A stretch of 64,000 nucleotides of DNA from Aporhodopirellula aestuarii (GTDB lineage: Bacteria > Planctomycetota > Planctomycetia > Pirellulales > Pirellulaceae). Below, in pieces: positions 28,006 to 46,556 of the stretch. The notes beneath the pieces were generated by a model that was not told the DNA's origin, did no database searches, and was given only the letters and a program-made list of their open reading frames with translations. The position numbers and the translations under genes were made by a program. Numbering within the stretch: the stretch's first letter is position 1; every line of letters begins with the position of its first letter. The stretch is taken from the NCBI RefSeq assembly GCF_023701485.1, contig NZ_JAMQBK010000012.1, positions 62,001 to 126,000 of the forward strand. The letters are read 5' to 3'.

Positions 28006-28447
28006 CGCTGAGTTCCTCCGCTATCAGTGTAGCGCATCGAATCGCCGCTTGCTCGGTTGGTGCTGTTAATCCAGCGAGCCGGTCGAATGATCGCCCATTT
28101 CCGATCCAAATGGTGACATGATCGGTGGGCTTTTGGAGCGACTGAGCCATTTGCAGTACGGAGGCAAGTCCCATATCGTGCGTTCCACGATGACGTATAG
28201 TTTGGATCAAATTACGATCGTGAGCATCGGCAAAACACAGCTTGCGAAACGGAACATCCACCGGCAAACCCACTCCGGCGTCAACGAGGACGACACGGTC
28301 GTTCGCCTCTAGCGACCCAATCAAATCGATGGGGTGACCGACTTTGGCGAGCGTGACATCTTGCAGGCCGATGTTTGCGATGTGATCCACAACCGACCAT
28401 CCAAACTGATCGTCGCCGTGTGGACTGCCGATTCCAATCACCGTCAT
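27983..28447 (-). CDS. Hydrogenase maturation endopeptidase (HyaD/HupD family)
   Basis: The protease removes the C-terminal peptide of the large subunit after nickel insertion. The 154-residue product starts at the ATG at 28447 with MTVIGIGSPHGDDQFGW, the family's nickel-sensing loop (usually GIGN, here GIGS), followed by VVLVDAGVG with the second metal-site Asp and a histidine in RHRGTHDMGL. A longer frame to 28582 would run back into the large-subunit gene. It lies 17 bp after the large-subunit stop, its probable substrate. Confidence 0.88.
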   Translation of the reverse strand: MTVIGIGSPHGDDQFGWSVVDHIANIGLQDVTLAKVGHPIDLIGSLEANDRVVLVDAGVGLPVDVPFRKLCFADAHDRNLIQTIRHRGTHDMGLASVLQMAQSLQKPTDHVTIWIGNGRSFDRLAGLTAPTEQAAIRCATLIAEELSDARNVAC

Positions 28448-28464
28448 GCGAGCTTGATTGCCGT

Positions 28465-32343: not shown

Positions 32344-32359
32344 CGCAGTTTGCGTACCA
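32344..32359 (-). promoter_or_regulatory. Candidate sigma54 promoter of the Usp-hydrogenase operon
   Basis: Read on the minus strand: TGGTACG-N4-CTGCG, against the consensus TGGCACR-N4-TTGCW. The GG and GC are spaced by exactly 10 bp. The expected start point is near 32334, about 43 nt before the Usp ATG. An NtrC-type activator is encoded at 36699. Confidence 0.5.
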
Positions 32360-32391
32360 ATCAAGCAATCGTGTGTTTTTGGTCCGGAGTT

Positions 32392-32405
32392 GTGCATACG
32401 AGCAC
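32392..32405. promoter_or_regulatory. GTGC-N6-GCAC palindrome, candidate activator site 1
   Basis: Perfect half-sites around ATACGA, 33 bp upstream of the -24 element of the candidate Usp-operon promoter. The same palindrome occurs at 36522-36535 and 41655-41668. Confidence 0.4.
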
Positions 32406-32617
32406 GGGTGTTTCCGTTTGATGTGCGATCAAGGCGCACTTGATGCGCAAGCATCGTTTGACGGATGCCGGTTTATGTTCAAAACGATCCCGTTAAGTTG
32501 CTGAGCGTTTATGAGGTGCCATCGCGATGCGAGTTTTGAGCGTCGTGTTGTGGCTTAAGGACGCATTGAGTCCGGTCGGAAATTCCGGGGAATACCTGTG
32601 ATTCGCGGTACTTAAGG

Positions 32618-32633
32618 GGGCACGTCGTAGGCA
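32618..32633 (+). promoter_or_regulatory. Weak sigma54-like promoter upstream of the first histidine kinase
   Basis: GGGCACG-N4-AGGCA keeps the GG-N10-GC core and the CAC, but the -12 element is poor. The expected start would be about 110 nt before the kinase ATG. Such cores occur often by chance. Confidence 0.25.
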
Positions 32634-32754
32634 ACGAGAGGTGACAGCCAGATTACGTGAGAATGGCGGGTTTGCTATGATAAGGCGACGGTCTATTCGC
32701 GTTTATTTTGACTGCGATTGTGCCGCTACGCTTCTTTCGCGAATGGGCTGATGC

Positions 32755-34251
32755 ATGAACGATGAGTTAAAAGTGTTGCTCGTCGAAGACGATCCAGATT
32801 GTCGAGCCAACCTCGCTCAACTCTTGCAGCAAGATGGTCATCTTGTTCGCGTCGCGGGGAGTTACGGTGAAGTCCGTGATTCCGGCATGCAACCCGATGT
32901 CTCGTTGGTGGTTCTCGATCGCCAGCTTCCAGACGGTGTGGCGGAGGAGATTCTTCCCGAGATGAAGAAGCTGCTTCCCCAAGCCGAGTTCGTCATTGTG
33001 ACCGGCTACGCTGATTTGGATAACTCGATTGCGGCGATGAAGTTGGGTGTCGTCGATTACATTGTCAAACCGATTCATGCCGGAGTCTTCCGGGCCAGTG
33101 TCGCTCGGATCGTGCGCCAACGGCGGATGCAGAACCAGTTGTGCAAAGAGCACGAATTTGCGTCACAGGTGCTCAAGACCGCTGAGGCGGTCATTCTTGT
33201 GTTGGATCTTGAAGGCCGGATTCAACGGTTCAATGAGTACTTCACGCAAATCACCGGGTGGCGACTCGAAGACATCGGAGGGAAGGATTGGTTTGCGACA
33301 TGCATACCGGGTGATGAGCGAGATCGGATTCGTGAGGTGTTCATGGCGACGGCTCATTGCGTGGAAAGTTCCGGCGTGATGAACTCCGTCATGACCTGTA
33401 CCGGGCGACAACGACACATCCGATGGTCCAACACGACGTTACAAGCTGAGGGCGGTGACGTCAGTTCGATCCTGGCTATCGGCGTGGACGTTACTGATCT
33501 GATCGCCGCGCAAAAAGATGCCCTGCAATCACAGCGTTTGGCGGCGATCGGACAAACCGTCGCGCGGCTGGCCCATGAAAGTCGAAACGCATTGCAGAGA
33601 ATCCAATCGAGCGTGGACATCTTGCAACTCGACATTCCCTTGGAGTCGGACCTGCGGGAGGAAGTCGACTCGATTTATCGCGCCTCCAATGAGTTGAAGG
33701 AGACGCTCGAGGAGGTTCGCCAATATGCGGCACCGATCCTATTGAGCCGTGAGGCCGTGTTGTTACAGGATGTATGGCGACGCGTTTGGGGGGATCTTGC
33801 ATTCTCTCGTACGGGGCGTGATGCGGAACTGGTCGAAACGTTATGCGGCTGTGACAACCTTGTGGACGTCGACGTGATGCGACTCGAACACATGTTTCGA
33901 AACTTGTTCGAAAACGCGTTGGCTGCCTGTCCGGATCCCGTGCGAATCCACATCGATTGTCAGTGTGACGGAGCCGATTGGATTCTTGTGGAAGTTCAAG
34001 ACAATGGCCCCGGACTGTCAGCCGAACAGCGGGAGAAGCTTTTTGAGCCGTTCTTTACGACCAAGACTCGAGGTACCGGATTGGGGATGTCAATCGTGCG
34101 GCGGATTGTCGAAGCCCATGGGGGGAGTATCGAACTTGGCGATGCAGATGGAGGCGGTGCGAAATTCGTGATCCGAATCGCGAAGCACGACCATGTTCGC
34201 GGTAACGTGTGCGTGTTGGCTTCGCAGGCTGAGAACGTTAGTTCTTTCTGA
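32755..34251 (+). CDS. Hybrid sensor histidine kinase: receiver-PAS-HisKA-HATPase
   Basis: The order of domains in 498 residues is an N-terminal receiver (acidic EDDPD at 11-15, phospho-acceptor Asp55, lysine in YIVKPIHA), a PAS domain (about 135-250, NEYFTQITGWRLEDIGG), a HisKA box with His274 in LAHESRNALQRIQ, and an HATPase_c domain (FENALAA, DNGPGLS, GTGLGMSIVRRIVEAHGG). There are no membrane helices, so it senses a cytoplasmic signal. The H-box is nearly identical to that of the kinase at 35310. It probably feeds the NtrC-type regulator at 36699. It is divergent from the Usp-hydrogenase operon. Confidence 0.92.
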   Translation: MNDELKVLLVEDDPDCRANLAQLLQQDGHLVRVAGSYGEVRDSGMQPDVSLVVLDRQLPDGVAEEILPEMKKLLPQAEFVIVTGYADLDNSIAAMKLGVVDYIVKPIHAGVFRASVARIVRQRRMQNQLCKEHEFASQVLKTAEAVILVLDLEGRIQRFNEYFTQITGWRLEDIGGKDWFATCIPGDERDRIREVFMATAHCVESSGVMNSVMTCTGRQRHIRWSNTTLQAEGGDVSSILAIGVDVTDLIAAQKDALQSQRLAAIGQTVARLAHESRNALQRIQSSVDILQLDIPLESDLREEVDSIYRASNELKETLEEVRQYAAPILLSREAVLLQDVWRRVWGDLAFSRTGRDAELVETLCGCDNLVDVDVMRLEHMFRNLFENALAACPDPVRIHIDCQCDGADWILVEVQDNGPGLSAEQREKLFEPFFTTKTRGTGLGMSIVRRIVEAHGGSIELGDADGGGAKFVIRIAKHDHVRGNVCVLASQAENVSSF

Positions 34252-34314
34252 GGCCGGGTTTTGCCAGTCGGATCGCAAACGTCGGTGAGATCACGGAAGT
34301 GTACTCGTTCGCCT

Positions 34315-34953
34315 TTATTGCAATTCAGACACTTTGCTTTGGCCCGTAACACGTCCCCAAGGACGTCGATTCGCATCAGGATTCCATCTGCCGGGCAGGT
34401 CCGGCCGAAGCGTGTGTTTGACGAGTTCTGCAAATTCCGTTGCAAAATCCTCCACAGCCTTCCAATCCGTGAATTCGTGGTCGTCGTTGAGTCGCGTATC
34501 GCATCCGTATTTCTTAGCGATCCAACGCATCATGTGTTTTTTCAGCCATCCGTACTCGGAATAACGAAGCGCTCCGGCAAAGGTGGCTCTGCGTGAAGGG
34601 GTATAGTTGATGCGTGAGAAGAGCTTGCTGACGGCTTCGTCCACCGTCTTTTGTTCGTCGGGGCGTTCATCGAGAATCCTCAAGCAGACCGTAAAAAACG
34701 CGTTCGGGATTTTTGATAAATAGTGATGGTTTTCTTGGATGCACCATACGACTCGGCGATCATGCTCGCCGTAGTGCAGCGGCGAACCGAGCACGACGGC
34801 TTCGTAGGATTCGATGGCCAGCTCGGTAACCGAGGTCTTGGTCACATCGAATGTGTCAGCAGCCACCCCATGCTCATTCAGCGTCAATGCAATCCGCTTA
34901 GCGATCCGCTCGGTTTGCCCTTCGCAGGTGGCATAGATGACGACAGCTCGCAT
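34315..34953 (-). CDS. Flavodoxin-fold, HemG-like protein
   Basis: The 212-residue product begins with a flavodoxin FMN loop (MRAVVIYATCEGQTERIAKRI) and has VVLGSPLHYGEHDRRV and the HemG-type end (AGALRYSEYGWLKKHMMRWIAKKYG). HemG is a menaquinone-linked protoporphyrinogen oxidase used under low oxygen; family members also act as general flavodoxin reductases, so this assignment is by similarity. The ATG at 34953 is chosen. A minus-strand sigma54-type promoter candidate lies at 35201-35216, giving a leader of about 240 nt. Confidence 0.8.
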   Translation of the reverse strand: MRAVVIYATCEGQTERIAKRIALTLNEHGVAADTFDVTKTSVTELAIESYEAVVLGSPLHYGEHDRRVVWCIQENHHYLSKIPNAFFTVCLRILDERPDEQKTVDEAVSKLFSRINYTPSRRATFAGALRYSEYGWLKKHMMRWIAKKYGCDTRLNDDHEFTDWKAVEDFATEFAELVKHTLRPDLPGRWNPDANRRPWGRVTGQSKVSELQ

Positions 34954-35200
34954 GGTTTCGACTCCGAGTGAATGCAACGGTCACGGTGAACATCTGGTAT
35001 TTACATAACCACGATCCAGGCGGACGTCGTTGCCCAATGATTAGATGTCGTGTGGCGTTTCGAATTCAGCTGACATCGCGTGGCGGCGGATCCGACGCCA
35101 TCTGAGATGACGCGACGCACGTCCGGCCAGCCCGGATTCACTGTGTTATCGAACGTCCAGGTGAGCGACAACAAAATTGAGATCAACGTGGGCAATTACG

Positions 35201-35216
35201 TGCGAAAGATGTGCCG
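35201..35216 (-). promoter_or_regulatory. Candidate sigma54 promoter towards the HemG-like gene
   Basis: On the minus strand: CGGCACA-N4-TCGCA, two mismatches from the consensus with correct 10-bp core spacing. The distance to the coding start is long, about 240 bp. Confidence 0.45.
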
Positions 35217-35248
35217 AAGCTGAGATGGCGATACGCCCTCAGCAGTTG

Positions 35249-35264
35249 TGGCACTCCGGTTGCT
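35249..35264 (+). promoter_or_regulatory. Perfect sigma54 promoter of the second histidine kinase
   Basis: TGGCAC-N5-TTGCT matches the -24/-12 consensus TGGCAC-N5-TTGCW at every conserved base. The predicted start is near 35275, 35 bp before the ATG at 35310, with GGCAGGAAG as ribosome-binding site between. Confidence 0.8.
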
Positions 35265-35309
35265 TTGGAATAGGCACTGATACGAAGCGTTTTGAGAGGG
35301 CAGGAAGAT

Positions 35310-36401
35310 ATGCATACTAAGACCAGCCCAGTACGTCGTAACCACTTGGCCAACGTCCTGATCGAAGCTTCTCCCGTGGCGATTGTTTTGTCAACGCCCA
35401 ACGGGACCATCGAGGTTGTTAATCGTGTCGCGCAGACGTGTTTCGGCTACCGTGAATCCGAGTTGGCAGGAGCGTCGCTCGACCTGCTCTTTCCCGATCG
35501 TGAGTCTCGACGCATTGGGACAGAACAGGTGCATTTTTTGTCACACCTGCGCCATCCTGATCCAGCAACGGAGTGGTGTTTGGCGGGCCGCCGAAGTGAC
35601 GGTTCGAATTTTCCGGCAAAAGTTTCGCTGTACCCGTTGGCGACGACGGACGGCGACAAACGGCTCGTCAACGTCGTCTGTCTCTCAGAAAACGACGCTT
35701 GCAGTGAGAAGCATGTTCAGTGTGAACGTTTGGCGGCCATCCTGCAGATGGCTTCGGGGCTCTCACACGAGTCTCGTAATGCGCTCCAACGGGCAGAGTC
35801 GTGTCTCGATCTGTTGGAGTTAGATCTCACGGACCGAACCGAATTATTGGGGCTGACCGACCGGATCCGCGATTCGTTGCATCACATCCACAAAACCTAC
35901 GAAGAAGTCAGAGACTACGCGGCTCCGATTTCCCTCCACCGGGTCGATACCAATTTGCCTCGTTTCCTCCAGGCGGTGGTCGATGCATGGACCGCCGATC
36001 GGTCCTGCGTCGTCCCCGAAATTCGAATTCGATGTGACCGCCAGTGTGAATGGGGAGTTCTCGACGAAAAATCCGTTGGCCAGCTGTTAAACCATCTTCT
36101 CGACAACGCAGCCGCGGCCAGCCCTCCTGATCAGGCCATCGAGCTCCGGTGTCGCCGGATCGTGACTACAGAGTCAGGTGGGATTGAACTTTCCGTGCGG
36201 GACTATGGATCGGGTTTCGATGAGCAACTCGAGCGATGTCTGTTCGAACCGTTTTTTACGACCAAACAACACGGCACGGGGTTGGGACTGGCGGTCTGTC
36301 GTAGGATCGTCGATGCCCACGACGGCACGATTACGCTGGCAAATCATCCCGCTGGGGGAGCAGTCGTTCACGTCGCACTCCCCCAGAGTCGGTCGAGGTG
36401 A
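35310..36401 (+). CDS. PAS-domain sensor histidine kinase
   Basis: The 363-residue soluble kinase has a PAS domain (about 14-125, IEASPVAIVLSTPNGTIEVV), a HisKA box with His153 in LSHESRNALQRAE, and an HATPase_c domain (LLDNAAAAS, RDYGSGFDE, GTGLGLAVCRRIVDAHDG). The ATG at 35310 is preferred over a start 18 bp upstream because of the GGCAGGAAG spacing. It has a consensus sigma54 promoter, so it is itself likely activated by the NtrC-type regulator encoded next, giving positive feedback. The H-box sequence is shared with the kinase at 32755. Confidence 0.92.
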   Translation: MHTKTSPVRRNHLANVLIEASPVAIVLSTPNGTIEVVNRVAQTCFGYRESELAGASLDLLFPDRESRRIGTEQVHFLSHLRHPDPATEWCLAGRRSDGSNFPAKVSLYPLATTDGDKRLVNVVCLSENDACSEKHVQCERLAAILQMASGLSHESRNALQRAESCLDLLELDLTDRTELLGLTDRIRDSLHHIHKTYEEVRDYAAPISLHRVDTNLPRFLQAVVDAWTADRSCVVPEIRIRCDRQCEWGVLDEKSVGQLLNHLLDNAAAASPPDQAIELRCRRIVTTESGGIELSVRDYGSGFDEQLERCLFEPFFTTKQHGTGLGLAVCRRIVDAHDGTITLANHPAGGAVVHVALPQSRSR

Positions 36402-36521
36402 CGCGCAATATCAACACTACACTCGTGATTCCAAAAAAATACGTCTCCCTGTGAATTTCGAAACCGGTAAGTTGATTCGCGCAATGATTGCATGTGCGTC
36501 CGTGCTCGTTTGCGCTCATCT

Positions 36522-36535
36522 GTGCGATCGTGCAC
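36522..36535. promoter_or_regulatory. GTGC-N6-GCAC palindrome, candidate activator site 2
   Basis: Perfect half-sites around GATCGT, upstream of the NtrC-type regulator gene. A one-mismatch relative (GTGC-N6-GCTC) lies at 36494-36507. It is placed for autoregulation. Confidence 0.4.
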
Positions 36536-36579
36536 ACAGGAACGTGCCGTTCGGTACCGGATTCTGCCACGTTGGGGTG

Positions 36580-36595
36580 CGGAACATCATTCGCA
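36580..36595 (+). promoter_or_regulatory. Possible sigma54 promoter of the NtrC-type regulator
   Basis: CGGAACA-N4-TCGCA keeps the GG-N10-GC core with three mismatches elsewhere. The expected start is about 93 nt before the ATG at 36699, and a GTGC-N6-GCAC palindrome lies 45 bp upstream. Confidence 0.3.
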
Positions 36596-36698
36596 CGCGG
36601 GTTCCCTGATGTGCGCTCTGCACGCATGACTGTCTCGGCAGCTTGCTCGTCGCGACGGTCAGCCGACATGGTCTGGCTTTCTTCCGCGAGGTTCTGCG

Positions 36699-38144
36699 AT
36701 GACCGAATCACCGATCAAGTTATTGCTCGTCGATGACGACGAAGACGCGCGGCGATCCGCGGCGAAGTGGATGCGGCGAAAAGGGCATGACGTTTCAGAT
36801 GTGTCGAATGCCGCGGAAGCTCTCAGCCTGCTCCAGCGTGAGACGTTCGAGGTTGGTGTCTTTGACATGAACATGCCCGGAATGTCTGGATTGGAGTTGC
36901 TCCAGCGGATTCATCAAGAGCACCTCGAGATCGAAGTGATCATGTTGACGGGCCAAGGGACCGTTGAGACGGCGGTGTCCGCGATGAAGATGGGGGCCTG
37001 CGAATTCTTGAGTAAGCCTTGTTCGTTAGGCGATTTGGAACACCACTGCTTCCGCGCCCGTGAGCGATGTCAGCTCAAGAAAGAAAACAAGCAACTCAAG
37101 GCGGTTATTTCGCGAGCACGTCCCGCTGCCGAATTGATTGGTGAGTCGCCATCGCTGCGGCACGTCGTGCACATGATCGAGAAAGTCGCGCCGACCAGTA
37201 AGCCCGTCTTAATTCAAGGTGAGAGTGGCACCGGGAAAGAGGTCGTCGCGCAAGCGATTCAGCAGGCAAGTCAATTTGCGGACAATCCGTTCGTCACCGT
37301 TAATTGTGCGGCGTTTCCTGAAAATCTTGTCGAGAGTGAATTGTTTGGGCACTTGAAGGGCGCCTTTACTGGGGCGAGTTCCGAAAAGCCCGGACTGTTT
37401 GAGATCGCAGACGGCGGGACGTTGTTCATCGACGAAGTCGGCGAACTACCGCTCGCCTTGCAGCCCAAATTACTGCGTGTTCTCGAAGACGGAACGATGC
37501 GGCGTGTCGGGTGTCACCGAGAGCGAAAGGTGAAAGTCCGCATCATTGCGGCCACCAATCGCGACGTGCAATCGGAAGTCGATGCCGGCAACTTCCGTGA
37601 AGACCTATTCTATCGCATCAACGTTTTTCTGATTCATCTGCCAACGCTACGGGAGCGTGAGGGTGATATCGATCGGTTGATCGATCATTTCTTGCCAAAG
37701 ACACACCATATCGATCCGGACGCGAGAGACGTTCTGAATCGTTATCCGTGGCCAGGTAACATTCGGCAACTTATCAATGTGCTCGAACGCGCGATGATCT
37801 TGTCGGATAATTGTGAGATCACATTAGATGACCTGCCCCATGAAATCGTTGACTACGATCAGGTGTCGATGATGCGAGCAAGACGCGATCGAGAGTCGTC
37901 CCATCATGAAGCCATCGATGAGTTCCACCACATCGAGAAATTGGGCGATGCGAGGTTTAAACTCGACGACATTGTTCGTGTCCACGTCGAAGAAGTCTTG
38001 GCGAAAGAGCATGGAAACAAAGCCAGCGCGGCACGCAAGTTGGGAATTCATCGACGCAAATTGTATCGTTTGCTAGACCGATTTCAGTGCAGTGATCGCG
38101 ATTCACACCGAGAGGTTGCGCCTGCGTGTCAGTCCACCGTATGA
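36699..38144 (+). CDS. Sigma54-dependent NtrC-family response regulator
   Basis: The 481-residue protein has a receiver (acidic VDDDED at 11-16, phospho-acceptor Asp56, lysine in FLSKPCS), an AAA+ domain with Walker A GESGTGKE (174-181), the sigma54-contact loop GAFTGA (221-226), Walker B LFIDEVGEL and the WPGNIRQL segment, and a C-terminal Fis-type helix-turn-helix (KASAARKLGIHRRKLYRLL). It activates sigma54-RNA polymerase at enhancer sites. It is the only such activator in the window and sits among several sigma54-type promoters. The potassium-channel gene follows after 16 bp. Confidence 0.95.
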   Translation: MTESPIKLLLVDDDEDARRSAAKWMRRKGHDVSDVSNAAEALSLLQRETFEVGVFDMNMPGMSGLELLQRIHQEHLEIEVIMLTGQGTVETAVSAMKMGACEFLSKPCSLGDLEHHCFRARERCQLKKENKQLKAVISRARPAAELIGESPSLRHVVHMIEKVAPTSKPVLIQGESGTGKEVVAQAIQQASQFADNPFVTVNCAAFPENLVESELFGHLKGAFTGASSEKPGLFEIADGGTLFIDEVGELPLALQPKLLRVLEDGTMRRVGCHRERKVKVRIIAATNRDVQSEVDAGNFREDLFYRINVFLIHLPTLREREGDIDRLIDHFLPKTHHIDPDARDVLNRYPWPGNIRQLINVLERAMILSDNCEITLDDLPHEIVDYDQVSMMRARRDRESSHHEAIDEFHHIEKLGDARFKLDDIVRVHVEEVLAKEHGNKASAARKLGIHRRKLYRLLDRFQCSDRDSHREVAPACQSTV

Positions 38145-38160
38145 ATGTGCGGGCTAGAGC

Positions 38161-39228
38161 GTGAGAGCAAACTCATCCAAGACGCCTCTTCAACGGACCG
38201 CCCATGGCGGCGTGCTGCTGTTTTTCGTGTTCGTTATTGCGGTGGCGGGTTACCAGATCCTCGGCAACTATGGATTGCTCGAAGCCGTCTGGATGGTCGT
38301 GATTACGATTTCAACGGTTGGATACAGCGAGGCGAGTTCGCTGTCGCCAACCTTGCAAGTTTTCACGGTGCTGGTAATCCTCGTCGGAATGTCGGCGGCC
38401 GCTTACACTTTCGGTGGGTTGATTCAATTACTCTTAGCGGGCGAGATCGATCGCCTCATCGGACTCCGACGAATGACCGCAGAAATTGCCACGATGAAAG
38501 ACCACATCATCATTTGTGGATTCGGAAGGATGGGACAGAGTTTGGCCGTCGATCTGCGGTCGCAGGGCAAAACCGTCGTCATTATCGAACTCGATGCGGA
38601 TCGGATTCGCGAAGCCGATATTCTCGAGTTCGCGTGCTTAACCGGCGACGCCACCGAAGAAGGTACGCTTGAGTCGGTGGGGATCGTTCGCGCGGGAACT
38701 TTGGTAGCGGCGTTGTCGGGTGATGCTGAAAACGTTTTCTTGACACTTACCGCTCGCAACCTGAATCCGGAAATACAAATCGTTGCACGTGCCGATCAAC
38801 GCAGCAGCGAGAAGAAGCTGCGACAGGCAGGAGCGAATCGCGTCGTCATGCCGACGGTGGTCGGCTCGCGTCAAATGTCGCGTTTTATCACTCGCCCAAC
38901 GACCGCAGACGTGATCGAGCTTGTTTCCCAACGAGACTTTGCCGATTTGGAGCTAGATGAGGTTTTCGTTTCCGAAACTAACGCGCTGGCGGGACTGACG
39001 GTGTCGGCAACGGACGCCCATCGTGAAAATAAACTGCTGATCATTGCGATTCAAACCGGCGAAGGGAAGTTGCTGTTCAATCCGGTCGCGACACATAAGA
39101 TTCAGACGGGGGACACGCTGATCGTAATGGGGCATCTCTGCGATATCAGGTCGTTTCGCGAGCGATTTGTTCAAAGTGATGATTTGAAGGGACAGAAAGA
39201 TCCCAATTGCCGCGGCGCCGAGTCGTGA
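38161..39228 (+). CDS. Two-TM potassium channel-like protein with TrkA-N/TrkA-C domains
   Basis: The 355-residue product has two N-terminal membrane helices (about 18-36 and 65-90) flanking a pore loop with filter TVGYSE (52-57), close to the canonical TVGYGD. A RCK/TrkA-N domain follows (IIICGFGRMGQSLAVDL, VVIIELDADRI) and then a TrkA-C domain (about 265-330). Such proteins are K+ channels gated by nucleotides or ions. The GD to SE change at the end of the filter may alter selectivity. A GTG start is used. It is likely cotranscribed with the sigma54 activator. Confidence 0.88.
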   Translation: MRANSSKTPLQRTAHGGVLLFFVFVIAVAGYQILGNYGLLEAVWMVVITISTVGYSEASSLSPTLQVFTVLVILVGMSAAAYTFGGLIQLLLAGEIDRLIGLRRMTAEIATMKDHIIICGFGRMGQSLAVDLRSQGKTVVIIELDADRIREADILEFACLTGDATEEGTLESVGIVRAGTLVAALSGDAENVFLTLTARNLNPEIQIVARADQRSSEKKLRQAGANRVVMPTVVGSRQMSRFITRPTTADVIELVSQRDFADLELDEVFVSETNALAGLTVSATDAHRENKLLIIAIQTGEGKLLFNPVATHKIQTGDTLIVMGHLCDIRSFRERFVQSDDLKGQKDPNCRGAES

Positions 39229-39238
39229 ATCATTCCGG

Positions 39239-39826
39239 CTATTTAATCGAGCTCTGTTGACGCATCGCAGTGCTGATCTGATGGATGATAGCCGACTCCT
39301 TTTTGGAGACCTTGCCGAATCCGAAGTGCCCACCAGAAGCTTTGGCGACCTGATTCATTTGGGTTTCCGTCAGATGAATGAGACGGCTTTTGGCCACATC
39401 GGACATGCCACCAAACAATCCGTGCGTGTAGCGTTTCCACGCGTCGACGCACAATCCGGGGGGACGTTTGGTGAGCCATTGTTGGAGCAAAATCCACGCG
39501 GTGGTATCCTGTGTGATGCCGATTTTGAAAGCTTGCGAGAGGACTTCGAATCGTTCGTTGGCGTCGACGTCTTCCTGCGCCCATGCGACCAGTACCAGAG
39601 GTAACAATCTCAATGCGATCAGGCCGTCTGCGGTGACGCCAAGTTTGCTCAACTCTTCTAGCAAGATTTCGTCTCGAACTCCGGTGCTGCGGAGCAATTC
39701 GGCGCGTCCGCGGTCGCTACTCGCTTCGTTGTGAATTCGCTGCAGAAGTTGTTCTTCGAGCTCCTCAAAGAACTCATGCGTTTTGGCTTTGCGTGCAAGA
39801 GCCGATTCGTGGGTGGGCCGAGTCAT
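39239..39826 (-). CDS. Conserved-looking hypothetical protein after the hydrogenase beta subunit gene
   Basis: The 195-residue soluble protein is mostly alpha-helical, with charged N-terminal helices ([19 protein letters not shown]), a central helix pair ([28 protein letters not shown], broken into two) and a tail rich in Gly and Lys ([13 protein letters not shown]). The [13 protein letters not shown] segment recalls TerB-like stress proteins, but I cannot assign it. It lies 71 bp downstream of the 4Fe-4S subunit gene on the same strand and ends 10 bp from the converging channel gene. Confidence 0.7.
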
Positions 39827-39897
39827 GTGGTTAGATTTCCTACAAGAATGAAAGTCGGTTCAAAGGTTCCGCCTTGCGATTTCGTCTCGTGTGTCGA

Positions 39898-41016
39898 TCA
39901 AGTGGTCACGGTTTCACGCAGGGCTGCGACTTCGTCAGTGAGATCAATTCCGACGGGACACCAGGTGATGCAACGACCACACCCGACACAGCCGGAAACA
40001 TCGAATTGATCTTCCCACGTCGCCATTTTGTGTATGAGCCATTGTCTGTATCGGCTGCGAATGTCGTTGCGAACGACGCCCCCAGCGGTGTGACTGAAAT
40101 CGATGTTGAAGCAACTGTCCCATTGGCGGACCCGCGAGACCTCGGTGTTCGAGAGATTGGCTACTTCGTCAACGGTTGAGCAAAAGCACGTGGGGCAAAC
40201 CATCGTGCAATTGGCACACGAAAGGCAGCGTTCGGCGACCTCCGCCCAGCGAGGATGTTCGAGGTTGTTCAACAACAAGTCGTGTACGCCCGCTTTGTCA
40301 AATTGCTTGGAAAGACTGTCTCGTGCGTTTTGAACTTCGGCGTCGGATTCTTCGATTTGAGTTGGGGTGGCCTGTGTGGTGGTGATACTCGAAAGTATCT
40401 TTCGCCCCGATTGGGAGCCTGCATGGATGACAAATCCATCGGCTGTTTCGGTCAACACGAGATCGAATCCGTTTTCGCAATTGGGGCCCGTGTCCATCGC
40501 GTTGCAGAAGCACGTGTTCGCCGCGGTGACACAATTGACCGCGACGATAAACGCGGCTTCGCGTCGACGACGGTAGGCCGCGTCGACGTATTCGTTGTCG
40601 CGAAAGACCCGGTCCTGCACCGCGATCGCGGCCAAGTCGCAGGCACGAACACCAAGTAGCGCGTATCGCGGAGTCGGTTCGTCAGGTGTTTTGAATATCC
40701 AGCCGTCGTCCGTCAGCGTCGCGGTGCCGATTTCGCTTGATGACGGGAAAAAGAATCGTTTCCAGGAATCGGGGCTGGAGTTGAATCGAAAGAGTCGGTC
40801 GTGTGGATCGTGTTGGAGTTCGTAAACGGCGGGTTCTTGATGATCCGTCCAGCCGCGGGGCAGTTCCGCAACATCACGAACGCTTCGGTAGACCACGGCA
40901 CCCTGTTGGACGGTCGGCCCGACAACGTCGTATCCGAACTCTACCAATTGATCGAGGAGTATTTGCAACTCTTCACGAGGAAGAAAGAAAGCGGGAGGCT
41001 GCGTGGTCGACTTCAT
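39898..41016 (-). CDS. Hydrogenase beta subunit, 4Fe-4S dicluster protein
   Basis: The 372-residue protein corresponds to the beta subunit of sulfhydrogenase and to subunit A of anaerobic sulfite reductase. The first part includes [20 protein letters not shown] and cysteines around [10 protein letters not shown]. The C-terminal part has two 4Fe-4S motifs, [12 protein letters not shown] and [12 protein letters not shown]. It should complete the electron chain of the hydrogenase encoded at 28465-31390. It is not in that operon but about 8.5 kb upstream on the same strand, coupled to a cNMP-domain gene by a four-base overlap. Confidence 0.9.
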
Positions 41017-41492
41017 CGGATGTCCTCGCGTGGGTGCCCGAACAGATCCAGCAGTTGCAAGCGTGTCGCCAGCAGACGCTGGGCGAGCTGTCGGGCAAGG
41101 TGCTCCATCACCCGATAGCCGATTTCATGATTCAACGCACACAGATCAAGCAGTCGCTGCGAGTCGTATCTCAGCAAACAAGAATCTCGCACCACCTTGG
41201 CGGTCGCGGTCATCCGCCCTCGGGCGAGCAACGCCGACCAGGCCAATGCATCTCCTCGGCCGAGGGTCAGCAGGGGGCGCAGCGATTGAGTCCCCGCTGT
41301 CATCTCGAGTGAAACATCCCCCTCGATGATCCAATAAATGTAAGTGTGTTTATCGCCTTCGCGAAAAACGACGTCGCCTGTGTCAAAACGCACAAGATCT
41401 CCTGCGTCCGCCAAGCTGATTTGATCGGCCTCGCAAAGCAGGTTTCCGAGTTGAAGTTCTCGCAGCGTTTGGAAAATCGCCATATCGTTCAC
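41013..41492 (-). CDS. Cyclic nucleotide-binding-domain protein without DNA-binding domain
   Basis: The 159-residue product is a single cNMP-binding beta-roll (RFDTGDVVFREGDKHTYIYWIIEGDVSLE ... LGRGDALAWSALLARGRMTATAKV, given in parts here) ending in helices, with no helix-turn-helix. The domain resembles the sensor half of Crp/Fnr proteins. Genes of this kind often precede the 4Fe-4S subunit in group 3b hydrogenase clusters, which supports a role in controlling that enzyme rather than in transcription. A sigma54-type promoter candidate and a 14-bp tandem repeat lie just upstream. Confidence 0.85.
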   Translation of the reverse strand: MNDMAIFQTLRELQLGNLLCEADQISLADAGDLVRFDTGDVVFREGDKHTYIYWIIEGDVSLEMTAGTQSLRPLLTLGRGDALAWSALLARGRMTATAKVVRDSCLLRYDSQRLLDLCALNHEIGYRVMEHLARQLAQRLLATRLQLLDLFGHPREDIR

Positions 41493-41509
41493 GATGGTGT
41501 TCCTACGAG

Positions 41510-41577
41510 AGGAAGGTATCGCCAGGAAGGTACCGCCTGGGCAGTGTCACCTGAGCAGTATTACCTGTCAGTGTCGC
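41510..41577. repeat. 14-bp imperfect tandem repeats in the leader of the cNMP-beta-subunit operon
   Basis: Four full units of exactly 14 bp (starting at 41510, 41524, 41538 and 41552) and a partial fifth. Units 1-2 share AGGAAGGTAYCGCC and units 3-4 share TGRGCAGTRTYACC; each unit ends in -CC. They lie between the candidate sigma54 start point (about 41564) and the coding start, so most would be in the 5' leader. Confidence 0.6.
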
Positions 41578-41590
41578 AATCGCCGTTCCA
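41575..41590 (-). promoter_or_regulatory. Candidate sigma54 promoter of the cNMP-beta-subunit operon
   Basis: On the minus strand: TGGAACG-N4-TTGCG, differing from the consensus at one base of the -24 box and the last base of the -12 box, with correct spacing. The expected leader is about 72 nt. Confidence 0.5.
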
Positions 41591-41654
41591 TCGTCGAACA
41601 TGTGCAATATGGCTGAATGAGGCGCAACATTGCGTGATTTGTGCGTGATTGCGA

Positions 41655-41668
41655 GTGCGTATGAGCAC
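41655..41668. promoter_or_regulatory. GTGC-N6-GCAC palindrome, candidate activator site 3
   Basis: Perfect half-sites around GTATGA, 65 bp upstream of the -24 element at 41589 and between two divergent genes. The central bases resemble those of site 1 (ATACGA). Confidence 0.4.
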
Positions 41669-41786
41669 GTTGCGCGTTCGTGCACGCATCGACGTGCCGT
41701 TTTCAAACAAATCTCAAACGGTATGGGGTTTGCCTTTTCAGAAACGTACGTGCGGAGATGACCATGCCCTCAATGGAGACACCGTG

Positions 41787-42239
41787 ATGCGACTAATCAA
41801 GCTCCTCTTCGTTTCTTTCGTGCTGGGGGCTGCTCTTGGAGCCGACGGCGACAGCCACACTCCGGGTGATTCTGAAGTTCCTGAACAAGCCGACGAGCAA
41901 CAGCTCGATTTTTGGATGCAAAAGAAGCTCGACTATTCGGGTGGGATTTTGCGAGGGCTCTCAATGGGTGACTTTGACGTCATCGAAACGAGTGCGAACC
42001 AGATGCGGGTGCTGAACAGGATTGAGGGCTTCGTTCGCAGTCGACACGAAGGCTATCGCGCTCACGTGAGATCCTTTGAACGCGTCACCGAAGAGATCAT
42101 ACGTCAGGCGGAACAGAAAAACATCGACGGCGTCACACTGGCATACCATCAAATGGTCGTCAGTTGTGTCCGTTGCCATCAATCGATTCGTGAAACCAAC
42201 CCTACCGATACGCTCCCCGCGACAGGGGCACAGAAGTAG
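41787..42239 (+). CDS. Secreted c-type cytochrome (c556/c'-like)
   Basis: The 150-residue product has a signal peptide (LLFVSFVLGAALGA) and a helical body ending in a single haem motif CVRCH close to the C-terminus (VSCVRCHQSIRE), the layout of four-helix-bundle cytochromes c'/c556. It may carry electrons in the periplasm or bind small gases such as NO. The start ATG at 41787 gives the signal peptide exactly. It is divergent from the cNMP-beta-subunit operon and may share its regulatory region. Confidence 0.8.
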   Translation: MRLIKLLFVSFVLGAALGADGDSHTPGDSEVPEQADEQQLDFWMQKKLDYSGGILRGLSMGDFDVIETSANQMRVLNRIEGFVRSRHEGYRAHVRSFERVTEEIIRQAEQKNIDGVTLAYHQMVVSCVRCHQSIRETNPTDTLPATGAQK

Positions 42240-42320
42240 CTGGTTCGCCATCTGATTGGATGTTGTTGCCTCGTCGAAAGCGTCTGTTGGACCTGTTCAA
42301 ATTTTGCATTTTATAGGCAG

Positions 42321-42336
42321 CGGCACACGGTCTGCA
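42321..42336 (+). promoter_or_regulatory. Candidate sigma54 promoter of the small membrane peptide and ppsA
   Basis: CGGCACA-N4-CTGCA differs from the consensus at the first base and one T of the -12 box. The expected start is near 42347, about 31 nt before the ATG of the 37-residue peptide. Confidence 0.6.
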
Positions 42337-42377
42337 TTTCAGTCAAACGCCTATCACGCTGGAAGGAGAATTTAGTT

Positions 42378-42491
42378 ATGTCCAATCAACGTATACCACG
42401 TTTTCGTCACGAGGTCGCTTTCTGGGTGGCCGCTTCGATCATTGCGGTCATTCTCTTTATTCTCTTGATGCAGACTGCCGTAGGGCTTTGA
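42378..42491 (+). CDS. 37-residue membrane peptide upstream of ppsA
   Basis: A strong ribosome-binding site (GGAAGGAG) precedes the ATG at 42378. The peptide has a basic, histidine-containing start (MSNQRIPRFRHE) and one clear membrane helix (VAFWVAASIIAVILFILLM), ending in QTAVGL. It lies 40 bp before ppsA and directly after a sigma54-type promoter. The composition, with charges confined to the N-terminus and a clean hydrophobic segment, argues for a real protein. It could be a small accessory subunit of a membrane complex, for example an oxidase or transporter; I do not recognise it. Confidence 0.7.
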   Translation: MSNQRIPRFRHEVAFWVAASIIAVILFILLMQTAVGL

Positions 42492-42531
42492 TGACGTAGC
42501 CGATTTTCGTCTTACTCAAGGGAATCTTTTA

Positions 42532-44958
42532 ATGAGCGTCGCAACCGAAAATTCGTTAGATCTCGTGCGCTGGTTCGAACAAATCAGCATGGATGATGTG
42601 GCCATCGTTGGTGGTAAAAACGCGTCGCTGGGCGAGATGTACCGTGAACTCACGCCGCAAGGCATTCGCATTCCCAACGGGTTCGCAACCACCGCGGCGG
42701 CGTATCGCACGTTCCTGGCTGAGTCGGGGTTGGATGAGAAAATCCCTCAAATTCTAAGCGGGATGAACGTCAGCGACGTCGGCAATCTGCAGCATCACGC
42801 GATGATCATTCGGCACATGATTCTCGAAACGCCGCTGCCCGATCTACTCTCGCATGCCATCGTTGCCGCATATCATCAACTCTGTGACGCGAGCAGCCAT
42901 CAATTGGCAGACGTCGCCGTTCGCAGCAGCGCAACGGCAGAAGATTTGCCGGATGCGAGTTTTGCTGGTCAGCAGGAAACGTATCTCAATGTCCGCGGTC
43001 AAGCCACGTTGCTCGACGCGTGCCGACGTTGTTTTGCATCACTATTCACGGACCGTGCGATCTCGTACCGGGCTCACCACGGTTACGATCACATGCAAGT
43101 CGCATTGTCGATCGGCGTACAGAAAATGGTTCGTTCGGATCTCGCGAGTTCAGGCGTGATGTTTTCCATCGACACCGAGAGTGGATTTCGAAACGCCGTG
43201 CTGATCAACGCCGCCTACGGCCTCGGCGAAAATGTCGTGCAGGGGAGCGTCAACCCTGACGAATACTATGTCTTCAAACCGACATTGCTCAAAGGTCATC
43301 GTCCGATCCTTAAAAAGTCGCTTGGTTCGAAATCGATGAAATTGGTCTATGACGCTGGCGGCAGCAAAATGACCAAGAACATTCCCGTCTCGCCTGAGCA
43401 ATCTGCTCAATATGCGATTTCGGACGACGACATCTTGCAACTCGCTCAGTGGGCTTGTGCGATCGAGAATCACTACAGCCAACGCAAAGGTTCCGATTGT
43501 CCAATGGACATGGAGTGGGCGAAGGACGGTAATACCGGTGAACTTTTCATCGTGCAGGCGAGACCTGAAACCGTTCAATCACGACGCAGCGTGAATACGC
43601 TCGAACGCTATCACTTAAAGGGGCATGGAAAGCTGCTGCTCAAGGGACGTTCGATCGGCGAAAAAATTGCATCGGGGCCCGTACGTTTGATTCGCGACAT
43701 TCATGAGTTGGCGACGTTCCAGCAAGGCGAGATTTTGGTGACTGACAAAACCGATCCCGATTGGGAACCGGTTATGAAGCAAGCGGCCGGGATCATTACC
43801 AATCGCGGTGGACGTACCTGTCACGCGGCAATTGTCAGCCGTGAAATCGGTCTTCCCGCGATTGTGGGCACAGGCAATGCGACCGACATTCTGCAGGATG
43901 GACAAGTCGTGACCATCAGTTGTGCGGAAGGTGATGCCGGAATCGTTTACGAAGGAGAGTTAGGTTTCGACGTCGAAAGCATCGACCTGGGCGCGCTCAG
44001 ACGTCCAAAAACCAAGATCATGATGAATGTTGCTTCGCCAGACGAAGCGTTTGCGTTTTCAATGATTCCCAATGACGGCGTCGGCTTGGCACGGGAAGAG
44101 TTCATCATCGGCAAATATGTCAAAGTCCACCCGCAAGCGTTGCTGGGATTTGACGACCTTGATGAAACGACACGTCTCGAAGTCGAAACGGTGACGCGTG
44201 GTTATGAGGATAAGCCACAGTTTTATATCGATAAGCTCGCCGAAGGCATTGCGATGATTTGCGCCGCATTTTATCCCAAGGATGTCATCGTGCGTCTGAG
44301 TGACTTCAAGACGAACGAGTATGCCGGACTCATTGGAGGCGCCTCATTTGAACCTTCCGAAGCCAACCCGATGATCGGTTTCCGTGGTGCCTCCCGCTAT
44401 TACCACCCGTCGTTTCAAGAGGCGTTTGGTCTCGAATGCAAGGCGGTCCAAAAGGTCCGTCATGAAATGGGACTGAATAATCTAAAACTAATGGTGCCGT
44501 TCTGCCGCACAATCGAGGAAGGTCAAAAAGTCCAAGCGGAGATGTCGAAGTACGGATTGGTTCGTGGCCAAGATGGTCTGGAAATTTACGTGATGTGTGA
44601 AATTCCAAGCAACGTGATTTTGGCAGATCAGTTCGCAGAGATCTTTGACGGATTCTCGATCGGATCCAATGACCTCACTCAGTTGACTCTCGGCGTGGAT
44701 CGCGATTCCGAAATCGTCGCTCATGTGTTCGACGAACGTAACGAAGCGGTCAAACGAATGATCCACAATGTGATCGGAACAGCGAAATCGGCGGGAGCAA
44801 AAATTGGAATCTGTGGGCAAGCCCCGAGTGACTATCCCGACTTTGCCGAGTTCTTGGTGCGCGAAGGAATCGACAGCATTTCGCTGACCCCGGACGCGGT
44901 GCTGAAAACCACAATCGACATCCTGCAAGTGGAAGAGCAACTCAGCACCAAAACCTAG
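42532..44958 (+). CDS. ppsA: Phosphoenolpyruvate synthase
   Basis: The 808-residue enzyme converts pyruvate, ATP and water to PEP, AMP and phosphate. It aligns along its length with the bacterial PpsA type: GGKNASLGEM and VRSSATAEDLPDASFAGQQET in the ATP-grasp domain, the phospho-histidine loop GGRTCHAAIVSRE, and the C-terminal PEP-binding barrel with ICGQAPSDY carrying the catalytic cysteine. It feeds gluconeogenesis. Expression from a sigma54-type promoter with a small membrane peptide is unusual and links it to the hydrogenase regulon. Confidence 0.96.
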   Translation: MSVATENSLDLVRWFEQISMDDVAIVGGKNASLGEMYRELTPQGIRIPNGFATTAAAYRTFLAESGLDEKIPQILSGMNVSDVGNLQHHAMIIRHMILETPLPDLLSHAIVAAYHQLCDASSHQLADVAVRSSATAEDLPDASFAGQQETYLNVRGQATLLDACRRCFASLFTDRAISYRAHHGYDHMQVALSIGVQKMVRSDLASSGVMFSIDTESGFRNAVLINAAYGLGENVVQGSVNPDEYYVFKPTLLKGHRPILKKSLGSKSMKLVYDAGGSKMTKNIPVSPEQSAQYAISDDDILQLAQWACAIENHYSQRKGSDCPMDMEWAKDGNTGELFIVQARPETVQSRRSVNTLERYHLKGHGKLLLKGRSIGEKIASGPVRLIRDIHELATFQQGEILVTDKTDPDWEPVMKQAAGIITNRGGRTCHAAIVSREIGLPAIVGTGNATDILQDGQVVTISCAEGDAGIVYEGELGFDVESIDLGALRRPKTKIMMNVASPDEAFAFSMIPNDGVGLAREEFIIGKYVKVHPQALLGFDDLDETTRLEVETVTRGYEDKPQFYIDKLAEGIAMICAAFYPKDVIVRLSDFKTNEYAGLIGGASFEPSEANPMIGFRGASRYYHPSFQEAFGLECKAVQKVRHEMGLNNLKLMVPFCRTIEEGQKVQAEMSKYGLVRGQDGLEIYVMCEIPSNVILADQFAEIFDGFSIGSNDLTQLTLGVDRDSEIVAHVFDERNEAVKRMIHNVIGTAKSAGAKIGICGQAPSDYPDFAEFLVREGIDSISLTPDAVLKTTIDILQVEEQLSTKT

Positions 44959-45277
44959 TCCTTCGTCAGCAGTAAAACTTGCTGAGTCACGCCGTTCCGC
45001 TAAGCTTTCTAGCGGAAGGGCATGAACGCAATGCCATCTACTTCGGTAGCGCGGTGAGGCGGAAGCCGCCCGGTTGTAGCAAGTAAGATGTTCGAAATTT
45101 ACCGGGCGACGTGCGCCGCTCCGCGATGAATACCACCCGGTGAGTGCGAGAGTAGATGGTATTGAACGCAAGCCGTCAGGTTGAAGCAATTCTTAAGTTG
45201 AAATCAAACAACACGCTAATGTGCAAACGAGAAGCGGGGGCGATACACGCACTCGCTTCTCGGACCAACACTTGTTG
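44959..45277. other. Convergent intergenic region with inverted repeats
   Basis: 319 bp between converging genes, with no credible frame. It contains a short hairpin at 44993-45016 (TTCCGCTA...TAGCGGAA), a long imperfect inverted repeat over about 45020-45175 (ATGCCATCTACT pairing with AGTAGATGGTAT, and GCCCGGT with ACCGGGC), a degenerate direct repeat of its edge, and the terminator-like hairpin at 45228. Confidence 0.55.
45228..45262. terminator. Hairpin between ppsA and the nitroreductase gene
   Basis: A perfect 9-bp inverted repeat, CGAGAAGCG ... CGCTTCTCG, with a 17-nt spacer lies 15 bp beyond the nitroreductase stop. It can end transcripts from either side. Confidence 0.5.
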
Positions 45278-46288
45278 TTAGATCAACATTTCTTCGATAT
45301 TACGACGCGGGGTGGGCTGCACTTCGCGGCCGTATCCCCACCGCAGCAGAATCTGCGAGAAACCTTCGTTTTCACACAGCTCATTGAGCTGCGGCCGCAG
45401 TGAAGCGACTTCAATCGGTTGATTCAGGAACGACGCAGACAATCCGCGGGACGTACCACGCAGCAACATTTTCGCGAGCGTCTGACCACACGCGATCCAG
45501 TCAGCCGGTGTGTCTCGAGGGGTGCCGATAATGACAAGCAACGGAGATCCCTCGGCCAACTGACGGTCCTTGGCGGCTTGGCCCTCGCCCCAGTCGAATG
45601 TGCGTACGAGCACGGGGCCTAAGTAAGATGCCAAAGTACCAACGCCGTGCGCATAACCGGGCATGCCGTCGCGACACGCGCTGCGGTTTGAGTGAACCCA
45701 TTTCGCCAATTCATGACGGAAGGCTTTGTCGCTGCCTTGAATGAGGTCGCCTTCGGTCACTAAATCGGCGATGGCGTGTTTTGTTTCCTCTTCGTCGAAT
45801 AGTTGGATCCAGCATCCTTCCGACTTTGCGTCCAAGTACCATTCGTCGTGAACCGAAGGCGGCACCGGTGCCGCGTCGAAGACGTTGCGGTTCGTTCGCC
45901 GTTTCGGAATCGCCCGGAATAGTTCCGCTTCGTCTTCGTCTGAAGTATGTGGTCCACTGATCCGAACTCGCGCTAACAAATCGGAATTGGCTGGATCGGG
46001 TAGAACGCGAACCAGCGTTGACAGAGCGTCGTGATGCAACGCGAGTCTCAAGTGAAACAAGGCCGCACCGCAACTGATTGTCAATTCCCGGTCGTCTGGA
46101 TCGACAACCGGCAGGGATCGATTGCGATCGGCAAGGATGTCAACGCTATCTCGATGCATCCGAAATTTCCAAGGTTGGGCGTTGTGCCCCGAGGGTGCCA
46201 TCACCGCATGTTCAATGGCCTGCCTGATCCGTTTTTTCAAACAAGCGGTGCGCTGATGCATGGCAGCGTCGTTGTAGGTGATAGTCAT
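45278..46288 (-). CDS. Acg-like nitroreductase-family FMN protein
   Basis: The 336-residue protein has a divergent two-lobed nitroreductase fold: APSGHNAQPWKFRMHRD near the N-terminus is the classic flavin-contact motif, RRTNRNVFDAAPVP lies mid-way and GCWIQLFDEEETKHAIADL after it, ending with WGYGREVQPTPRRNIEEML. This matches the Acg/putative-nitroreductase group, which in mycobacteria is induced by hypoxia and may bind rather than turn over flavin. ATG at 46288, with 46261 as alternative. A strong sigma54-type promoter candidate lies 55 bp upstream. Confidence 0.88.
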   Translation of the reverse strand: MTITYNDAAMHQRTACLKKRIRQAIEHAVMAPSGHNAQPWKFRMHRDSVDILADRNRSLPVVDPDDRELTISCGAALFHLRLALHHDALSTLVRVLPDPANSDLLARVRISGPHTSDEDEAELFRAIPKRRTNRNVFDAAPVPPSVHDEWYLDAKSEGCWIQLFDEEETKHAIADLVTEGDLIQGSDKAFRHELAKWVHSNRSACRDGMPGYAHGVGTLASYLGPVLVRTFDWGEGQAAKDRQLAEGSPLLVIIGTPRDTPADWIACGQTLAKMLLRGTSRGLSASFLNQPIEVASLRPQLNELCENEGFSQILLRWGYGREVQPTPRRNIEEMLI

Positions 46289-46342
46289 TGCATGATTCCC
46301 GGTAGTTGAGGTCCATTTCTAAACGAGATCTGCGAAAAGGCT

Positions 46343-46358
46343 TGCAAGGATCATGCCG
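46343..46358 (-). promoter_or_regulatory. Candidate sigma54 promoter of the Acg-like gene
   Basis: On the minus strand: CGGCATG-N4-TTGCA, two mismatches from the consensus with a perfect -12 box and correct spacing. The leader would be about 45 nt. A near-copy of the GTGC-N6-GCAC palindrome with one inserted base is at 46447-46461. Confidence 0.55.
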
Positions 46359-46556
46359 GGGCTAAAAACACCGTAAATGGTCGATCGCCGTATGCGAAAT
46401 GGCCCGGTGACCGAGCAATACCGCACAATGTGTGTGGAAAAAGTGTGTGCATTCGTGTCACGAAGAACACCCACTCGACTTGGCCGCCGAGGCGTTTGGT
46501 GACCTGAACGTGTTGGTGAACATTGTCTTGGGGCGACGTCTCGATCGATTCGAGGT

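Follow-up and report, generated by a model that had tools for sequence, protein, structure and literature searches.

A putative sigma54-dependent oxygen-limitation regulon with a shared candidate operator in Aporhodopirellula aestuarii

A stretch of 64,000 nucleotides of Aporhodopirellula aestuarii (contig positions 62001-126000 of NZ_JAMQBK010000012.1, in a genome of 9.07 Mb and 165 contigs), referred to here as the window and used for all coordinates unless a contig is named, contains a cluster of genes for stress proteins, a NiFe hydrogenase, kinases, and an NtrC-type transcriptional activator. An earlier note on this DNA, made from the letters alone, proposed that these genes form a single sigma54 regulon for hypoxia or reductant overflow. 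Comparison with related genomes (G001, G002, and so on, this genome being G000) indicates that the locus is probably one cluster of a regulon for oxygen limitation that is controlled by a sigma54-dependent NtrC-type activator with FixL input. The genome has a single match to rpoN.

Organization of the locus

Gene families at the locus were assigned by Pfam and NCBIfam, except for a cytochrome-like protein and a 37-amino-acid (aa) peptide recognized by reading only, and the assignments agree with those proposed previously for the Usp, hydrogenase, HemG-like, kinase, cyclic nucleotide (cNMP)-binding, PpsA, and Acg genes. A leftward-transcribed series begins with a tandem universal stress protein (Usp) gene (31371-32291; PF00582) and continues with the hydrogenase gamma (FAD/NAD; 30545-31417) and delta (small; 29757-30611) subunits, both with approximate starts, the alpha (large) subunit of a sulfhydrogenase-type NiFe enzyme (28465-29760), a maturation protease-like protein (27983-28459, start approximate; NCBIfam TIGR00072, 45.0 bits against a cut-off of 47.45), and the maturation proteins HypA, HypB (CobW/HypB/UreG domain), HypF, HypD, and a HypE-like AIRS protein (22301-28005). 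To the right of these, the regulatory genes are rightward-transcribed and include a hybrid kinase with the NmpS-like order receiver-PAS-HisKA-HATPase (32755-34251, by Pfam and alignment), a PAS histidine kinase (35310-36401), and the NtrC-type response regulator (36699-38144), with a leftward HemG-like flavodoxin-fold gene between the kinases (34315-34953; PF12724, with 120 bits to the NCBIfam HemG model, whose cut-off is 142). The remaining genes are those for the hydrogenase beta (4Fe-4S) subunit (39898-41016) and a cNMP-binding domain protein (41013-41492; PF00027), both leftward, then rightward genes for a cytochrome c-like protein (41787-42239, with a CVRCH motif by reading, in an open reading frame without a Pfam family) and phosphoenolpyruvate synthase PpsA (42532-44958, above the NCBIfam cut-off), and a leftward gene for an Acg family FMN oxidoreductase (45278-46288; NF047509, above cut-off).

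Predicted sigma54 promoters and their conservation

Sigma54-like sites were scored over both strands of the window with an approximate, literature-based matrix and the consensus TGGCAC-N5-TTGCW. The six sites named in the earlier note are all present, including a perfect match at 35249, and the expectation that they would rank at the top holds for four of them (35249, rank 1; 46343, rank 3; 42321, rank 4; 41575, rank 5), the others ranking 13 (35201) and 18 (32344, with three mismatches to the consensus). Four of the five best matches lie 5' of genes, one of these (42321) failing conservation. Rank by itself is unconvincing because the window has 50 sites with two or fewer mismatches against 28 expected, and a perfect match is likewise weak evidence, since the genome has 16 of these compared with 7 for the reversed pattern.

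Conservation was therefore measured as the number of identical positions out of 16 in alignments with G003, which is syntenic over the entire cluster, and, where syntenic, with G012, which is syntenic over part of it. Five of the six sites keep 11 to 16 positions while flanking parts of the same alignments are 17 to 52% identical, in keeping with a role as promoters that recur in orthologous loci: the usp-hydrogenase-hyp operon site (32344-32359, minus strand; TGGTACGCAAACTGCG; 15/16 in G003 and 16/16 in G012), that of the HemG-like flavodoxin gene (35201-35216, minus; 14/16 and 13/16), the perfect site of the PAS kinase gene (35249-35264, plus; 13/16 and 11/16), that of the cNMP-beta operon (41575-41590, minus; 15/16 in G003), and that of acg (46343-46358, minus; 15/16 in each). 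The sixth, proposed for ppsA (42321-42336, plus), keeps only 7/16 in G003. Two conserved sites had been overlooked, one before the activator gene (36580-36595, plus; CGGAACATCATTCGCA; 15/16 in G003 and 13/16 in G012) and a weak one before the cytochrome-like gene (41719-41734, plus; 11/16 in G003, the rest being 46% identical); conservation of the latter is modest, but its G003 counterpart is the strong site TGGCACAGGCTTTGCC. Seven of the eight promoters tested thus have conserved sites. Because ppsA lies downstream of site 41719 in the same direction, it may be transcribed from the promoter of the cytochrome-like gene. Before the hybrid kinase gene the best site scores 7.9 (at 32618), and none is evident in the G003 and G012 alignments.

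A candidate operator upstream of five promoters

Reading of the upstream regions revealed an inverted repeat, GTGC-N6-GCAC, which is the probable operator of the activator; a search of the intergenic regions for inverted repeats gave nothing beyond it. Copies lie 32 to 81 bp upstream of the predicted promoters of the usp, activator, cNMP, cytochrome-like, and acg genes, and each copy is matched in one or more relatives. Perfect palindromes number four in the window, all within 32.4-45.6 kb, among them those at the usp promoter (32392-32405, 32 bp from the -24 box), at the activator promoter (36522-36535, in the same place in G003 and G012), and between the divergent cNMP and cytochrome-like promoters (41655-41668), which share it. 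The activator's own palindrome is perfect in G003 and G012 even though the six central bases differ, a pattern of preserved arms and diverged center that is expected of a protein-binding site. A second copy with one mismatch lies 17 bp from the shared palindrome (41672-41685), and tandem copies at this distance precede the cytochrome-like gene in the window, G003, and G001. The acg copy (46413-46426, 54 bp from the -24 box) has one mismatch and is found in the same place, also with one mismatch, in G003 and G012. Another perfect palindrome, GTGCGTACGAGCAC, is within the acg coding region (45600-45613) and is nearly identical to the copies at 32392 and 41655.

The spacing and half-sites were controlled in loci other than the window's. 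In 16 of these (from relatives, together with the paralogous B locus of this genome described below), exact intergenic copies number 15 with a 6-bp spacer and 0 to 4 at each of the spacers 0-5 and 7-12. A module was defined as a sigma54 site scoring at least 8 with an operator copy 15-180 bp upstream, and was counted in 11 loci, leaving aside G009 (which gave no module and is a near copy of G002) and the short loci L056, L057, L060, and L061. Exact modules number 21 at N6, compared with 0 to 4 for other spacers and 0 to 8 for 23 other half-sites with the same make-up as GTGC; the 21 are sigma54 sites, several of which share one palindrome. The predicted promoters and operator, together with their conservation, can be read from sequence comparison, as can the gene families.

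The operator often lies near 32, 43, 54, or 64 bp from the -24 box, and distances reach about 140 bp. For 21 gaps selected by hand, a common phase is seen with a 10.5-bp period (R 0.82); this is only suggestive, because the selection omits long or alternative gaps (e.g., 76, 115, 154, and 177 bp) and comes from related rows. Three copies of a more specific operator, GTGCNTANGAGCAC, are present in the genome, all of them at this locus, but this form was chosen post hoc and is not relied on; by a rough estimate chance triples of such likeness are expected in 13 kb, and the relatives keep only the GTGC and GCAC arms.

The activator, its paralogue, and the kinases

The activator (copy A) has a receiver domain, an AAA+ domain with GAFTGA at residue 221, as had been noted, and a Fis-type helix-turn-helix (Pfam), placing it in the sigma54-dependent NtrC family, with NtrC1/ZraR as its relatives in the PDB. 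Matches with at least 60% identity are present in 11 of the 13 genomes of the genus, the exceptions being G006 and G008, and its relatives include proteins of Planctomycetes bacterium SV_7m_r, Rhodopirellula sp. SM50, and Roseiconus nitratireducens. A paralogue, copy B, is encoded elsewhere in this genome (C148:99429). The A copies form their own clade (seven rows, support 100/100) in a tree that has long branches outside it and leaves out the partial rows G018 and G012B, and the recognition helix, IHRRKLYR, is identical in the 20 A and B rows that have a C terminus. The B gene has its own operator, followed 167 bp further on by a weak A-like site (CGGAACGCACTTCGCT, score 7.3).

Both kinases of the locus carry PAS domains. 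Kinase inputs, as suggested earlier, are favored by the comparative evidence, and a third kinase is the likely oxygen sensor of the system. This protein, encoded near the activator in G001, is a FixL-like heme-PAS kinase (1d06, E=1.4e-34), whereas the local PAS kinase aligns weakly with the same FixL PAS structure (E 1.8e-7). FixL-type kinases are present in 18 of the 60 relatives searched and in 11 of the 13 genus genomes; these are the same 11 that have the activator, G006 and G008 lacking both. In 8 of the 13, including this one, no more than about 4 kb separates the gene from that of the activator or its paralogue; G001, G002, and G009 have it at the A locus, and G000, G003, and G012 at the B locus, the copy in this genome (C148:96390) being beside activator B. 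In an alignment that sets aside the G009 row of the local PAS kinase, the proximal heme histidine (HDxY) is kept in 14 of the 15 FixL-type rows, that of this genome included, and the IIGIGR feature is present. The acidic residues of the hybrid kinase receiver are kept in 8 of 9 aligned rows, the exception being G012. In the G012 receiver (L038 region), E takes the place of the likely phospho-acceptor D, and the acidic pocket contains an A, so that this receiver may be locked in one state.

Candidate regulon members outside the locus

The palindrome is common, with 141 perfect copies in the genome, and the flanks of 116 of these were examined for a sigma54 site scoring at least 10 at a distance of 15-180 bp. 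Six have one: two in this locus, and one each at genes for pyruvate formate-lyase (PFL), an oxidase subunit I (COX1 in Pfam, cbb3-like by reading of the sequence), a DsrE-like protein, and an AraC-like protein. The regulon probably extends to the PFL, oxidase, and DsrE-like genes, given how these modules recur. A PFL gene is present in 4 of the 13 genus genomes and all four have the module, with gaps of 107-126 bp, an operator that is exact in three and has one mismatch in the other, and sigma54 scores of 11.0, 13.2, 7.7, and 13.7. The cbb3-like oxidase gene is found in all 13, and in four (G000, G003, G012, and G010) it is preceded by two operators 28-29 bp apart and a sigma54 site scoring 9.1-11.5, which is TGGCAC-N5-TTGTT in three genomes and TGGCACTGCGGGTGTA in G010; G001 has two one-mismatch operator copies upstream of this gene. 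Among the upstream regions of 15 relatives' genes (3 PFL and 12 oxidase), five contain an exact N6 operator, compared with zero or one for control spacers and half-sites. The DsrE-like gene, present in 7 of the 13 genomes, has in this genome (L214, G000:C144:270737) an exact operator and a sigma54 site scoring 16.0 (TGGCACAGCGAATGCA); in four genomes a one-mismatch operator lies 43 bp from a sigma54 site (13.9 in two, 7.0 in two), and in G001 and L053 a DsrE gene is located about 1 kb or less from the activator gene. The last of the six matches is at C78:886 (L229), and the open reading frame over it is AraC-like by reading.

The hydrogenase and other cargo

All four hydrogenase subunits match HydA/B/G/D and Shy sulfhydrogenase models below the equivalog cut-offs, with beta and gamma also matching models of anaerobic sulfite reductase; we take the enzyme to be an NAD(P)-linked NiFe hydrogenase of group 3b. 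The alpha subunit is present in 17 of the 60 relatives and in 2 of the 13 genus genomes, compared with 11 of 13 for the activator, so the hydrogenase is not core. Genes behind modules or in the cluster in relatives code for several Usp proteins, Hsp20, a DHOD-like protein, a DeoC/LacD-type aldolase, phosphofructokinase, and a PPK2-like protein (the last by reading of sequence). The core of the system is the regulator set together with Usp, with the hydrogenase an accessory that is plausibly a redox valve.

Interpretation and alternatives

We propose the following model. As oxygen falls, the FixL-type heme-PAS kinase, at the paralogous locus in this genome, would change state, and the signal would pass to the receiver-PAS-kinase hybrids, and perhaps also to the PAS kinase, and on to activators A and B. 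The phosphorylated activator would bind GTGC-N6-GCAC upstream of the -24/-12 promoters and open the RNA polymerase-sigma54 complex. Predicted targets at the locus are Usp, the NAD(P)-linked hydrogenase and its maturation proteins, the hydrogenase beta subunit, the cytochrome-like protein, Acg, and the activator itself, perhaps also PpsA, and those outside it are PFL, the cbb3-like oxidase, and the DsrE-like gene. Of the two signals suggested previously, hypoxia is favored over reductant overflow because of the FixL kinase and the PFL, oxidase, and DsrE-like targets. The notion of a single regulon is likewise favored by the comparison, in the form of a sigma54/NtrC low-oxygen regulon, although of the six promoters originally claimed only those of usp, cNMP, and acg carry the operator. 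A wider proposal, which we hold with about as much belief as doubt, is that in Rhodopirellula and its kin a sigma54-dependent NtrC-type activator driven by FixL and duplicated, with one operator for both copies, fills the role of FNR, FixK, or DosR as master switch away from an aerobic life to microaerobic cbb3 respiration, PFL fermentation, hydrogen evolution serving as a redox valve, and Usp/Acg dormancy, with targets interchangeable between species.

Several observations weigh against the oxygen-limitation regulon, and some of them speak for other explanations. Activator binding, the order of phosphotransfer, and oxygen as the signal are inferred. The regulon could be real but respond to general energy or redox stress, with the two PAS kinases of the locus as sensors and FixL acting on copy B alone. 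The PAS kinase at 35310 has no FixL heme histidine by alignment, FixL itself is encoded away from the cluster here, at the B locus as in G003 and G012, and Usp, Hsp20, aldolase, and PPK2-like genes are found behind modules in relatives, all of which would suit a non-oxygen signal. Outside the genus, the pairing of FixL and activator is also looser, G025 having both, and G018 and G023 the activator without FixL. The PFL and oxidase modules speak for oxygen, as do the presence of FixL at the A locus in G001, G002, and G009 and the identical recognition helix of A and B, so we regard a non-oxygen signal as improbable. The PFL and oxidase genes were, however, singled out of the six matches partly for their identity, and the other 9 of the 13 oxidase genes lack an exact operator and have, within 300 bp, no site scoring above 7.2.

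The sigma54 sites could instead be real while several activators share the locus, the operator marking some promoters without uniting them. The flavodoxin and PAS-kinase promoters of the window have no operator within one mismatch, so that the activator may or may not control this pair, and the G003 usp promoter lacks an exact copy. The genome matches the activator in at least 22 places at E<=1e-60, so that there are many such proteins, and sigma54 sites are not enriched genome-wide near the palindrome: the 6 of 116 with a site compare with 66 of 1,200 random positions in the same loci, which is the chance rate, and finding members from the palindrome alone failed. With five operator-bearing promoters at the locus, all with counterparts in relatives, and the N6 peak among exact copies, we think this arrangement is unlikely too, if anything slightly more so than a different signal. 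It is far harder to credit that the -24/-12 matches and palindromes are functionless chance resemblances picked by eye. The excess of weak matches in the window gives such a view something to build on, and the ppsA site was dropped because it is no better conserved than its surroundings (46%). A perfect palindrome lies inside the acg gene (45600). Allowing one mismatch, there are 54 intergenic copies at N6 against 18-45 for other spacers, and the modules number 53, whereas other spacers give 15-48 and other half-sites as many as 75; since the controls catch up, one-mismatch operators were rejected as stand-alone evidence, and those at acg, the second cNMP copy, and most DsrE-like genes rest on conserved position only. 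Chance does not readily account for the conservation of 11-16 positions at seven of eight promoters beside far more diverged flanks, nor for the spacer and half-site controls for exact operator copies.

Relation to known systems

The closest parallel is NmpRSTU of Myxococcus xanthus. There, in the presence of oxygen, an active heme kinase phosphorylates the receiver domain of a hybrid kinase and keeps that kinase inactive; at low oxygen the hybrid kinase passes phosphate to an NtrC-type activator, which binds paired dyads to switch on the sigma54 promoters of Usp, the cbb3 oxidase, and its own genes (PMC11841059). By analogy, the planctomycete system may work in the same way. The two have in common a heme kinase thought to sense oxygen (FixL here), a hybrid kinase with an N-terminal receiver and C-terminal HisKA-HATPase, an NtrC-type activator, sigma54 promoters with paired dyads, self-regulation (predicted here), and Usp and cbb3-like oxidase targets, which here are predicted modules only, that of the oxidase in 4 of 13 genomes. 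They differ in that the candidate sensor here is a heme-PAS protein whereas NmpU is a protoglobin, the operator is GTGC-N6-GCAC rather than the GCGCA-N5-TGCGC of NmpR, the hybrid kinase has a PAS domain, there is an additional PAS kinase, the activator is duplicated, and the predicted targets include the hydrogenase, PFL, and Acg. The NmpR consensus has one exact match in 16 loci (the window's included and G009 left out). With candidate sensor, operator, extra PAS kinase, duplicated activator, and predicted targets differing, the system is not filed as a member of NmpRSTU.

Other systems share parts of this design. FixLJ-FixK of rhizobia has a FixL heme-PAS kinase and places a cbb3 oxidase under low-oxygen control, as is predicted here for a cbb3-like oxidase, but its FixJ is a two-domain regulator, whereas the one beside FixL here is an AAA+ sigma54 activator. 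The mycobacterial DosR dormancy regulon, which includes Usp, Acg-type genes, and in some species a hydrogenase, resembles the locus in gene content only, DosR being a LuxR/NarL-type regulator without use of sigma54. HoxA and HupR are NtrC-type activators that work with sigma54, answer to H2, and drive uptake NiFe hydrogenases; the combination of activator, sigma54, and NiFe hydrogenase is similar, but the enzyme here is of the NAD(P)-linked sulfhydrogenase type and accompanied by stress genes.

Among the sigma54 targets that a matrix study predicts in Planctomycetia and Planctomycetota are UspA (COG0589), NtrC/ZraR (COG2204), and kinases, and the operator, the oxygen link, and a hydrogenase for Planctomycetia are absent from the passages available (PMC12316311). 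Among the papers listed in searches of the open literature, none, judged by its title and the opening of its abstract, describes this combination, NmpRSTU apart.

To our knowledge, low-oxygen sensing and survival have been little studied in planctomycetes, and the question can be put to the test through a defined operator and promoter type, an activator, and a candidate sensor. If the proposal is true, the logic of NmpRSTU is found again in a distant phylum, where sensor and operator are different, an NAD(P)-linked hydrogenase is under sigma54 control alongside dormancy-type genes, and one activator with a shared DNA switch replaces the low-oxygen regulators known from model bacteria.

Other features of the locus

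A rightward TrkA-N ion channel gene (38161-39228, Pfam) follows the activator gene. The cNMP-binding protein has no DNA-binding domain detected by Pfam, and its gene adjoins that of the hydrogenase beta subunit, likewise in G003 and G025; it might gate the hydrogenase. The intergenic region between ppsA and acg contains several long imperfect inverted repeats (44987-45262), with arms of up to 25 nucleotides. Between the cytochrome-like gene and ppsA is an apparent single-span membrane peptide of 37 aa (42378-42491), where the DNA aligns well with G003. A leftward gene between those for the ion channel and hydrogenase beta codes for a conserved protein of 195 aa without a Pfam family (39239-39826), which recurs in the loci of G003, G001, G002, and G009 and, by eye, in L053. 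It sits behind a sigma54-operator module in G001, G002, and L053 and is a candidate for a new low-oxygen protein family.

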